48,487 nt of DNA from assembly GCA_040753495.1 (NCBI GenBank), contig JBFMEF010000004.1:1-48487 (forward strand). The letters run 5' to 3'. The position numbers were made by a program, and so were the translations under genes. The DNA is from Candidatus Zixiibacteriota bacterium (GTDB lineage Bacteria; Zixibacteria; MSB-5A5; GN15; PGXB01). Shown piece by piece: positions 22,798-31,217 of this stretch (positions are counted from its first letter, which is position 1; every line of letters starts with the position of its first letter). The notes below the pieces were generated by a model, which saw nothing but the letters and a program-made list of their open reading frames with translations, made no database searches and was not told where the DNA came from.

Positions 22798-23017
22798 TGT
22801 TCCCTCCCTTGCAATAATTTGGACTATAACCAGGCTGTTACTCTTAGTTTCGGCTTCAGAGGAATAATCCTTGAATTATTTGTCCATATTGCGACGCCGT
22901 CTAAGATGTTGCCATCCAAGACATTAGGGGGGGGGCGGCAACCTCGGGGGAAATTCCCTGCCGCCATCCTGGACAAGATATATATATCCGCTCAAAAAGA
23001 CCGGATAACTGCGGTGT

Positions 23018-29039: not shown

Positions 29040-30662
29040 TCATTTGACGACAGAGGCGGGATGCACTATCTCGCCTTTAAGAGCGCTGGCGGCGCAGGTC
29101 GCCGGCGATGCCACCAGCAACTCCCCTGAATCAGCTTCTGCCTTTGGTGATGCCGACAAATATGACGACGCCAGGCATCTCTCACCTCCGGCAATAAACC
29201 CAAAATTATCGAGGGGCGGATGAAGCGCCCCAGGATTCATGACAATAGCGCCCGCCTCGATAAAGGCGCGAATTAATCCCTTTTTGAGCGCTTCCAGGTA
29301 AACCGAGCGAGACCCCGGCAGCACATAGAACCGAACATCGGGATGAATTTTCTTCCCCTTAATAATGTCCGCCGCCAGTTTCAAATCGTCAAACCGTCCG
29401 TTGGCGCAGGAACCGAGAATTATCTTTTGAACCGATGTCCCCAATAACTCTTCCACTGGCATTACTTTTCCCGAACCGAAGACACGGGCAATTTGCGGCG
29501 TTAAGGTCGTCGCCGTCAGTTCCAGTTCATCAGCATAAACCGCATCCTTGTCGGCAAGTGCCGGTCGATACGGCATCTTGGTCCGTCCGTGCAAGAATCG
29601 TCGAGTCACAGCGTCAAAAGGGAAGATTGCCGAATGCACCCCCAGGGTTGCCGATTGATGCGCCAGATTAAATCGGTCCGACATCGACAGCATCGGGACG
29701 GTTGAACCATAAAATTCAATCGCCTGTCCCTGCCAGGCGCCATTCTTGGCGTTGGCGACGAACCAGAGCGCGATATCCTGCGCCGTCACGCCCTCTTGCA
29801 TCTTGCCGTTCATGACCACTTTCACCGTCCGGGGGGTACTAAGGGAGACTTTTCCCTTAGCCCAGAGGTTAGCCATATGGGCGATACCAATATTGAATGC
29901 AAATGAGCCAATAGCGCCATGGGCAACTGCGAACTGCTCGGAGCCGGCCGCAAACTGGCCCGGAAGGACCTGGCCCCGCTCCAGAATAATCTGGTGACAC
30001 GCCCCCTCCCGGGAATCGAAAAAATGCTTGATATTCTGCCGACGGGCAAATTCGCGTACGGCAAAATAGTCAGCCGCTCTTTCCGCGGTGATGTCGGCGC
30101 CGGTCTCATTCAGGACTATAATTACCCGCCCCGGATTCCAGACAAAATTCACCCCGAGCTCCCGAAACTGCTTTACAACGGTAGATGAGTTATCGTCACA
30201 GATTGCCAGGTCCGGTTCAATCGAGACTGTTTCGCCCGGCTCCACTTTCGCTTTTTCCGCCTTTTCCGCCAGGATTTTCTGGGAGATAGTCTGTCGACCG
30301 TAGTTGGCGCGGCGGATGGCGGCGCGGCCGGAATCATCAAGATTCAGCTCCAGCTGCTCCAGTTTTAGAAAAGCCGGTTTCTCCAGGATATTATATTTGC
30401 GTCGCCAGTTGTAGAAAGCCGCCTTGGAAATGCCGATTTCCAGGCCGCAGCGGTAATCATCCCCGAAGCGCTCCCAGAGGTCGCGCACTTCACGCTCCGA
30501 AAACTTCGGAAACGTATTCCGCGGGACATTCTTTTTGCGCCGCCAGTAGGCAACCAGATGCGCCGTGACACCGCCGAGTCGCTCGGCGATTTTCTCATCG
30601 GTCTTATAGAGTCTTTGTAATTGTATTAGTTCCGCTTTGGTCGGGATTTTTGTTCGGGGCAT
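29040..30662 (-). CDS. Helix-turn-helix protein fused to a degenerate aconitase/LeuC-like domain
   Basis: A 540-residue protein. Residues 1-95 hold two helix-turn-helix-like units (TDEKIAERLGGVTAHLVAYW with RRKK; and GLEIGISKAAFYNWRRK). Residues about 120-540 follow the aconitase / isopropylmalate dehydratase large-subunit fold: ISQKILAEKA, GACHQIILERG, PRTVKVVMNGKMQEGVTAQD, LSMSDRFNLAHQ, GSCANGRFDDLKLA, ASPATCAASALKGEI. Only one of three Fe-S cysteines remains (Cys419). The usual GCxxC pair is replaced by GALHP (Ala479, Pro482). The active-site DHN is DDN (156-158), the DSHT motif is EQFA (242-245) and the SNRNFEGRQG segment is lost. So it is probably not an aconitase-type enzyme. It overlaps the HIT gene by 37 bases. 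Regulatory function is inference. Confidence 0.8.
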   Translation of the reverse strand: MPRTKIPTKAELIQLQRLYKTDEKIAERLGGVTAHLVAYWRRKKNVPRNTFPKFSEREVRDLWERFGDDYRCGLEIGISKAAFYNWRRKYNILEKPAFLKLEQLELNLDDSGRAAIRRANYGRQTISQKILAEKAEKAKVEPGETVSIEPDLAICDDNSSTVVKQFRELGVNFVWNPGRVIIVLNETGADITAERAADYFAVREFARRQNIKHFFDSREGACHQIILERGQVLPGQFAAGSEQFAVAHGAIGSFAFNIGIAHMANLWAKGKVSLSTPRTVKVVMNGKMQEGVTAQDIALWFVANAKNGAWQGQAIEFYGSTVPMLSMSDRFNLAHQSATLGVHSAIFPFDAVTRRFLHGRTKMPYRPALADKDAVYADELELTATTLTPQIARVFGSGKVMPVEELLGTSVQKIILGSCANGRFDDLKLAADIIKGKKIHPDVRFYVLPGSRSVYLEALKKGLIRAFIEAGAIVMNPGALHPPLDNFGFIAGGERCLASSYLSASPKAEADSGELLVASPATCAASALKGEIVHPASVVK

Positions 30663-31147
30663 ACCGAATCGAATCCTTTTCTCAGCATGTCATATATCAT
30701 TCCCAGATCGAATGATACCACCCTGGTTTTGCTTATCACCGGCATGAAGCTGGTGTCTTCGTTCCAGCGGGGAACTATATGCATATGAATATGCCCGGGC
30801 ACCCCGGCCCCCGAGCCACGCCCCAGGTTCATTCCTAAATTAAACGACTGCGGATTGAGTGTGAGACGGAGCACCCGCGTCGTCAATTTGACCAGTTCCA
30901 AAAATTCCGTCGATTCCTCCGCCGTCATGCTTTCCAGCGATTTGATATGCCGCTTGGGGACGACCATAACATGACCGGAGTTGTACGGGAACTTATTCAT
31001 TATGACAAATATTCTCTTGCCGCGATAGACAATCAAATCCCGGCTGTCCTGCCGGCGACGAATGCGGTTGCAGAAGATGCAACCTTTTTCTTTCTTGCCA
31101 AGAATATATTCCGACCGCCAGGGAGCCCAGATGAATTTTTCCTCCAT
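30626..31147 (-). CDS. HIT-family nucleotide hydrolase/phosphorylase
   Basis: A 173-residue histidine-triad protein. The catalytic HxHxH motif is GHIHMHIVPRW (His119, 121, 123). N-terminal Cys23 and Cys26 (CIFC) with later His residues suggest a bound zinc. Residues 50-68 are NKFPYNSGHVMVVPKRH. The N-terminal WAPWRSEYI is typical of the Ap4A-phosphorylase-like group common in actinobacteria and FCB bacteria. It probably cleaves dinucleoside polyphosphates or related nucleotides. No Shine-Dalgarno sequence precedes ATG 31147, and a -10-like TATATT lies 8 nt upstream. Confidence 0.9.
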   Translation of the reverse strand: MEEKFIWAPWRSEYILGKKEKGCIFCNRIRRRQDSRDLIVYRGKRIFVIMNKFPYNSGHVMVVPKRHIKSLESMTAEESTEFLELVKLTTRVLRLTLNPQSFNLGMNLGRGSGAGVPGHIHMHIVPRWNEDTSFMPVISKTRVVSFDLGMIYDMLRKGFDSVCPEQKSRPKRN

Positions 31148-31155
31148 AGGGCGTT

Positions 31156-31183
31156 AATATACACAAATTCCCGCCGCCGCCAA
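31156..31183 (-). promoter_or_regulatory. Candidate promoter giving a leaderless HIT mRNA
   Basis: On the minus strand TATATT (31161-31156) stands in an otherwise GC-rich stretch, 8 nt before the HIT start codon. TTGGCG (31183-31178) is a weak -35 at 16 nt. A transcript starting 6-8 nt after the -10 would have almost no leader, fitting the absence of a Shine-Dalgarno sequence. Confidence 0.4.
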
Positions 31184-31217
31184 ATGGTTTTTGCGCCGTT
31201 GAATATGATGCACCCTT

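Follow-up and report, generated by a model that had tools for sequence, protein, structure and literature searches.

In IRP1 and the aconitase trigger enzymes of bacteria, RNA is bound by the body of the enzyme, which has kept its cluster site. The aconitase superfamily is also known to vary this site, as in Aconitase X (AcnX), an active enzyme with domain 4 and three cysteine ligands of its own (PMC8184944). As far as the cited account goes, regulators of the GabR/MocR type have a winged HTH fused to an aminotransferase fold, and GABA is the signal to which GabR, with PLP in its enzyme fold, responds (PMC5734734). In the present study we describe a gene in which two HTH units are joined to an aconitase fold, found in a stretch of 48,487 nucleotides from a Candidatus Zixiibacteriota bacterium (contig JBFMEF010000004.1; the whole stretch is called the window below). 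Open-access papers on Zixibacteria and aconitase, or on HTH and isopropylmalate isomerase, yielded none describing this family. We consider it probable, at roughly 70%, that the HTH-aconitase, now catalytically dead, descends from an HTH-tethered isopropylmalate/homoaconitate-type isomerase and acts as a transcription factor.

What the sequences themselves document is the architecture of this protein, its universality in the phylum, the graded loss of the enzyme, the co-decay of LeuD, the shift of constraint towards the HTH part and the fixed HIT neighbour; from these we infer that the HTH-aconitase binds DNA and controls transcription. The 540-aa ORF lies on the minus strand at 29040-30662 with its ATG at 30662, the coordinates being exact, and is built as follows.

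29040-30662, minus strand: HTH-aconitase pseudoenzyme gene, 540 aa (ORF and translation; alignment of 53 orthologues; AF2 pLDDT 85.6)
30531-30638, minus strand: HTH unit 1, residues 9-44, recognition-helix signature LVAYWRRKK (AF2 helices 9-18, 22-29 and 34-43)
30396-30497, minus strand: HTH unit 2, residues 56-89, recognition-helix signature KAAFYNWRR (AF2 helices 56-66, 69-76 and 80-89)
30345-30380, minus strand: near-invariant linker peptide KPAFLKLEQLEL, residues 95-106 (two alignments)
29055-30293, minus strand: aconitase/isopropylmalate-isomerase large-subunit fold, residues 124-536 (PF00330; phmmer 4nqy; Foldseek 4kp1)

Residues 1-106 consist of two predicted trihelical HTH units and the linker peptide; AF2 places six helices in residues 9-89 (mean pLDDT 83), in agreement with the first-pass annotation, which had read two HTH-like units from the N-terminal letters. 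The recognition helices are near-invariant in 53 relatives, and YWRRK of unit 1 is invariant in their alignment. Pfam matches of the window protein to HTH_23 (20.2 bits against a cut-off of 24.6) and HTH_Tnp_1 (18.8 against 24.1) are sub-threshold and recur in 33-34 of 35 orthologues, weak matches to these models falling on unit 2 across the orthologues. Searches of the HTH part against the PDB with phmmer and hmmsearch gave chance matches only, none significant, and the top Foldseek neighbours were DNA-binding domains of tandem homeodomain-like type (Mos1, the engrailed tandem and SETMAR), all with E > 0.1. The body belongs to the aconitase superfamily (PF00330, E 4.6e-55, 187.9 bits against a cut-off of 28.7). 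Its nearest NCBIfam models are of the LeuC/HacA type, every one below its cut-off (for the LeuC-type models NF001614, 343 against 385 bits, and TIGR01343, 316 against 385.7), and its nearest solved structures are the M. jannaschii isopropylmalate isomerase large subunits 4nqy/4kp1 (phmmer E 2e-73, 32% identity). The near-full-length aconitase/LeuC-type fold proposed earlier is borne out by this Pfam match and by Foldseek (window model against 4kp1, E 3e-47, TM 0.92 of the target).

By fold, then, the window protein is a member of the aconitase superfamily; as a working LeuC it fails, and the features concerned are these.

29217-29228, minus strand: lost cluster cysteines, CGPC of intact fusions changed to ALHP, residues 479-482 (alignments to 4nqy and orthologues)
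29394-29414, minus strand: GSCANGR, residues 417-423, with the sole remaining cluster cysteine, Cys419 (alignments)
29928-29939, minus strand: degenerate DSHT motif, EQFA, residues 242-245 (alignment to 4nqy and orthologues)
29127-29171, minus strand: lost substrate-binding loop, residues 498-512, NRNFKGRMG in intact members (alignment)

Of the three [4Fe-4S] cysteines of LeuC only C419 is present, with A479 and P482 in the other two places, so that NPSCSAC of 4nqy corresponds to NPGALHP. Furthermore, ADSHT of 4nqy has become SEQFA, HDN is DDN at 156-158, and the NRN..R loop is absent from 498-512; the losses that had been noticed from the letters (Ala479, Pro482, EQFA, DDN and the missing substrate segment) therefore agree with the 4nqy alignment. 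Five of 16 scored active-site residues are left, and His223 remains, as it does in nine of nine members of f1, the family of the window (codes f1-f19 denote the families of our genome search). The retention of Cys419, also pointed out earlier, holds for the window protein and not as a feature of the family: being kept in just 22 of 39 relatives from the two best-sampled families, it is probably a remnant. The ancestral active-site columns are occupied by many different residues in 53 relatives, no cysteine outside the ancestral set was found conserved across both f1 and f4, and no replacement set of cluster ligands is conserved.

The partner subunit is missing as well. That no leuD lies nearby, as first noted, is true, and neither a stand-alone LeuC nor a stand-alone LeuD was found anywhere in the window genome, where Aconitase_C is carried only by fused aconitases/homoaconitase and hence by no LeuD-type partner. 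The check proposed for separate intact paralogues thus turned up two intact-type aconitases (one cut by a contig end) and one homoaconitase, each fused to its own swivel domain, and no stand-alone LeuC.

The HTH-aconitase is a phylum-wide, single-copy family and no one-off. When 84,980 species genomes were scanned with six peptide patterns, the HTH-bearing relatives among the matches listed came only from Zixibacteria, and the hits listed from elsewhere, LeuC-like proteins, matched the aconitase part. Among 60 relatives nearly every one has the full-length gene, at one per genome, and a profile of the HTH pair has exactly one match in 120 of 132 Zixibacteria genomes (76 of the 78 near-complete ones), nearly always within a frame of about 450-700 codons. 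Nothing convincing for the HTH pair appeared in 15 genomes with LeuC-like relatives (best E 0.0035, partial), and it was found in none of 82 genomes of a neighbouring phylum, to which one of those 15 belongs. One Zixibacteria genome, G061 (f5, reported 100% complete), has no detectable HTH gene, through either an assembly gap or a true loss, though a genome of the same genus has one.

Equally constant is the gene in front.

30626-31147, minus strand: HIT-domain gene, ATP adenylyltransferase/Ap4A-phosphorylase-like (Pfam HIT E 4.6e-17; NCBIfam below cut-off)

This gene stands directly upstream on the same strand at 81 of 81 loci from 18 families while the other neighbours change, so the HIT operon is as old as the HTH-aconitase family itself. 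Its stop overlaps the HTH-aconitase start in the window, and such overlap is frequent at other loci. Such strict pairing might reflect a functional tie to a dinucleotide signal.

How the enzyme was lost can be followed among living relatives. We scored 16 cluster, catalytic and substrate positions of 80 orthologues on an alignment with free-standing enzymes. All 16 are intact at nine loci belonging to four families (f6, f12, f13 and f14), and two of the three f12 proteins, run against NCBIfam, reach 559-589 bits, above both LeuC cut-offs by a wide margin. The 71 other orthologues keep 0-12 of the 16 residues (4-12 in f1, 3-9 in f4), and different members of f1 and f4 retain different ones, as expected if each had decayed on its own from an ancestor that was largely intact. 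All three cluster cysteines persist at ten decayed loci, including five of the nine in f1, whereas no locus with a lost cysteine keeps all 13 other residues, the maximum being 8; this suggests that substrate and catalytic residues were lost first and the cluster ligands later. On an unrooted tree of HIT plus HTH, with the decaying part left out, two changes between the intact and decayed states suffice. Because regaining 16 specific residues is implausible, the direction of change on this unrooted tree would be loss rather than gain. The most extreme proteins, with 0-1 of the 16 residues, are encoded at four f3 loci (L137, L138, L139 and L135) and at L194 and L195 (f18, f19); those of f3 are longer, at 560-592 aa, and their C-terminus aligns only in part.

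LeuD follows the same course. A functional-looking leuD lies directly downstream at eight of the nine intact loci, and at the ninth the contig apparently ends before that point. Six decayed loci (L199, L201, L202, L192, L238 and L239) are followed by a LeuD-like gene, about 1.6-2.3 kb past the start of the HTH-aconitase frame, that has lost the GSSRE loop typical of LeuD from intact loci; the one that was checked scores 116 bits against LEUD_arch, vs 199 for an intact LeuD. Such a gene beside a decayed LeuC-like fusion presents two enzyme subunits decaying together, both still encoded. Because complete HTH-LeuC enzymes accompanied by leuD are found in sister families, the fusion can go together with a loss of catalysis and probably came before it. 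The intact fusions of f6 and f12-14 could be true trigger enzymes, and the signal sensed ancestrally could have been iron-sulphur status.

The constraint has moved accordingly between the two parts of the protein. Mean pairwise identity of the HTH and enzyme parts is 0.73 and 0.78 in f12-14, 0.85 and 0.55 in f1, and 0.86 and 0.46 in f4; that is, the enzyme part is the better conserved one in the intact families and the HTH part in the decayed f1 and f4. Selection on the gene, claimed on first reading, is confirmed by comparison with an orthologue of the same genus, to which the HTH part is 98% identical (dN/dS 0.013) and the enzyme part 89% identical (dN/dS 0.067). Of the 100 alignment columns that do not vary in enzymes or intact fusions, the active-site ones are kept in 36% of f1 and f4 cells and the others in 66% (P 6e-4). 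New invariant positions have also appeared.

29583-29603, minus strand: newly invariant basic stretch with Arg354, Arg355 and Arg360 (each Arg in 39 of 39 f1 and f4 members)
29268-29270, minus strand: newly invariant Arg465 (39 of 39 f1 and f4 members; E, S or Q in free-standing enzymes)

At positions 354, 355 and 465 the intact fusions have mostly Lys, and free-standing enzymes mostly have something else (Leu/Glu and others at 354/355). What has been kept is the fold, the HTH part and a set of basic positions, and not the pocket.

Several other accounts of the gene were considered and rejected. A pseudogene is ruled out by dN/dS values of 0.01-0.11 in the decayed f1, f4 and f16 pairs with measurable dS, and by reading frames that are open, with a single exception, throughout about 50 full-length relatives. 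A recent gene fusion or horizontal transfer is ruled out by the phylum-wide spread, the single copy and the fixed neighbour, and a normal, mis-annotated LeuC with a spurious upstream extension by the fact that the HTH is the best-conserved part. The single interrupted frame, L120 (G039:C69), has an internal TAA within the aconitase part, from either a sequencing error or a real truncation; the latter would leave the HTH and part of the body.

The promoters of the HIT gene offer a candidate binding site. In f4, a palindromic motif search upstream of HIT gave TAAC-N3-TTG-N5-CAA-N3-GTTA (log-likelihood 143-148; shuffles gave no more than 62), in most cases 85-109 bp ahead of the start of HIT. Two sub-sites per half-site together with the dyad would be the geometry expected for a dimer of tandem-HTH subunits. 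The palindrome YAAN4TTGN5CAAN4TTR has 768 matches against 114 of the reversed pattern in 126 Zixibacteria genomes (6.7-fold), vs 344 against 162 (2.1-fold) in sequence of equal amount taken from a neighbouring phylum where no copy of the gene was found. Its sites were intergenic in 34 of 39 unselected cases, compared with 15.5% of random positions, and in about 87-95% of sampled sites. Genes found repeatedly downstream of the sampled palindromes encode an ECF sigma factor, DciA, ThyX, an ATP-synthase gene-1 protein and a family-35 glycosidase. A matrix whose training set consisted solely of f1 and f5-f8 sites was significant in 21 of 31 f4 HIT promoters and in 3 of 37 HIT promoters outside f4. 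The window contains two elements of interest.

22902-22926, no strand assigned: exact palindrome YAAN4TTGN5CAAN4TTR, intergenic, candidate target (117 bp before a 272-aa lipoprotein-like minus-strand ORF)
31181-31190, minus strand: conserved promoter element AAACCATTTG (43 bp ahead of the start of HIT and overlapping the -35 region)

The second of these matches the half-site TAAC-N3-TTG at every base but the first and may have a regulatory role. The HIT promoters of f1 carry a half-site only, AAACC-N2-TTG or similar (AAAGC in one member), 42-43 bp before HIT at nine of nine loci. Non-palindromic motif searches in f1 and the intact families returned A-rich or promoter-like motifs only. In an informal comparison across families, changes in the recognition helices tracked motif enrichment inconsistently, f16 being an exception. 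G061, the genome without a detectable HTH gene, still has the palindrome (6 matches against 1 control). Within the neighbouring phylum, which has no HTH match, the 10.3-Mb genome G225 is an outlier with 64 matches against 3 reversed controls.

The palindrome is very probably real and regulatory. Its assignment to the HTH-aconitase, with TAAN4TTGN5CAAN4TTA as operator, is plausible but unproven, because another phylum-wide regulator could own it; we would rate it slightly below an even chance.

Among other readings of the protein, the one that survives best, unlikely as we consider it, holds that a carboxylate or a remodelled Fe-S cluster is still bound in the aconitase pocket, which thereby gates DNA binding, in the manner of IRP1 or a trigger enzyme. 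It can appeal to the ten decayed loci, five of nine in f1, that hold three cluster cysteines after losing substrate residues, to His223 in all nine f1 members, and to the AcnX fold, which holds clusters via other ligands (PMC8184944); yet the window protein is without two of the three cysteines, f1 and f4 share no conserved cysteine apart from ancestral ones, and the pocket residues vary freely. The first-pass annotation had suggested a pseudoenzyme regulator that perhaps binds a tricarboxylate or malate-like ligand or nucleic acid. The pseudoenzyme stands, with 5 of 16 residues left and two cysteines lost, but such a conserved ligand in the ancestral pocket is unlikely, because that pocket is free to drift between the decayed orthologues.

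Somewhat less probable is a nucleoid-associated or RNA-binding protein, or a scaffold for the HIT enzyme as partner, in place of a sequence-specific regulator. The HIT gene at every one of the 81 loci, the new invariant arginines in the body and the lack of a palindrome found before the protein's own operon in most families would all suit it; near-invariant recognition helices, as expected for sequence-specific contacts, the single copy per genome and the existence of a phylum-specific operator-like palindrome argue against it. Least credible of all is a still-active enzyme of altered chemistry with the HTH region as a mere oligomerisation or targeting domain, for which speak the purifying selection on fold and gene and the precedent of AcnX, in the same superfamily with other ligands and residues (PMC8184944), and against which stand the mixed ancestral active-site columns with no new catalytic set conserved in 53 relatives and a domain 4 (LeuD) that is missing or decayed.

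We thus return to a transcription factor derived from a dead isomerase. Its two homeodomain-like HTH units per subunit would bind DNA, and the aconitase-fold body, without catalysis or the usual Fe-S cluster, would serve as a scaffold holding the subunits together and may present a new conserved basic surface (Arg354/355/360/465). The phylum ancestor most likely had an intact two-in-one trigger enzyme, HTH-LeuC plus LeuD, co-expressed with a HIT-family nucleotide hydrolase; several lineages would then have kept and sharpened DNA binding while losing the substrate residues first and the cluster cysteines later. A bolder version, which we hold only tentatively and with the odds leaning against it, makes the HTH-aconitase a global, phylum-wide transcription factor that sits as a dimer on the palindrome TAAN4TTGN5CAAN4TTA, each subunit placing its two HTH units on one TAAC-N3-TTG half-site. 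Among the genes under its control would be those of the ECF sigma factor, dciA, thyX, the ATP-synthase operon and the family-35 glycosidase, and living sister lineages would still have the ancestral enzyme-regulator.

The path from an enzyme to a dedicated regulator is usually pieced together from its two ends. In this case a single-copy gene, orthologous and syntenic throughout, covers everything from a complete HTH-enzyme with its partner to a protein with no active-site residue left, including intermediates that have lost substrate binding and kept the cluster cysteines, and the constraint moves from the enzyme to the DNA-binding part. The step from trigger enzyme to transcription factor thereby becomes testable with living proteins, and a largely uncultured phylum gains a candidate master regulator and operator. 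In most Zixibacteria, a dehydratase annotation of these genes would mislead.

Compared with LeuC/HacA (MJ0499, 4nqy/4kp1; MJ1003, 4kp2), residues 124-536 have the same fold at 32% identity, and the intact HTH orthologues likewise keep 16 of 16 scored residues and leuD, whereas the window protein adds the tandem HTH and is without two cysteines, DSHT, the substrate loop and LeuD. Aconitase X is, like the window protein, a divergent superfamily member with a non-standard cluster site, but has no HTH. The HTH part resembles the Mos1 transposase, SETMAR and the engrailed tandem in having two trihelical units in a row; unlike them it is bacterial and no transposase, with no significant match in sequence or structure (Foldseek E > 0.1). 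IRP1 and the bacterial aconitase trigger enzymes use the aconitase fold in nucleic-acid regulation, as proposed here, while the window protein has a dedicated domain of DNA-binding type and has lost the cluster site. With GabR/MocR, as far as these are described in the account cited above, the HTH-aconitase shares a DNA-binding domain joined to a metabolic-enzyme fold and used for regulation; it differs in the enzyme fold, in the HTH and in its decayed pocket and, set against GabR, in that the series from enzyme to regulator is still present among its living relatives.
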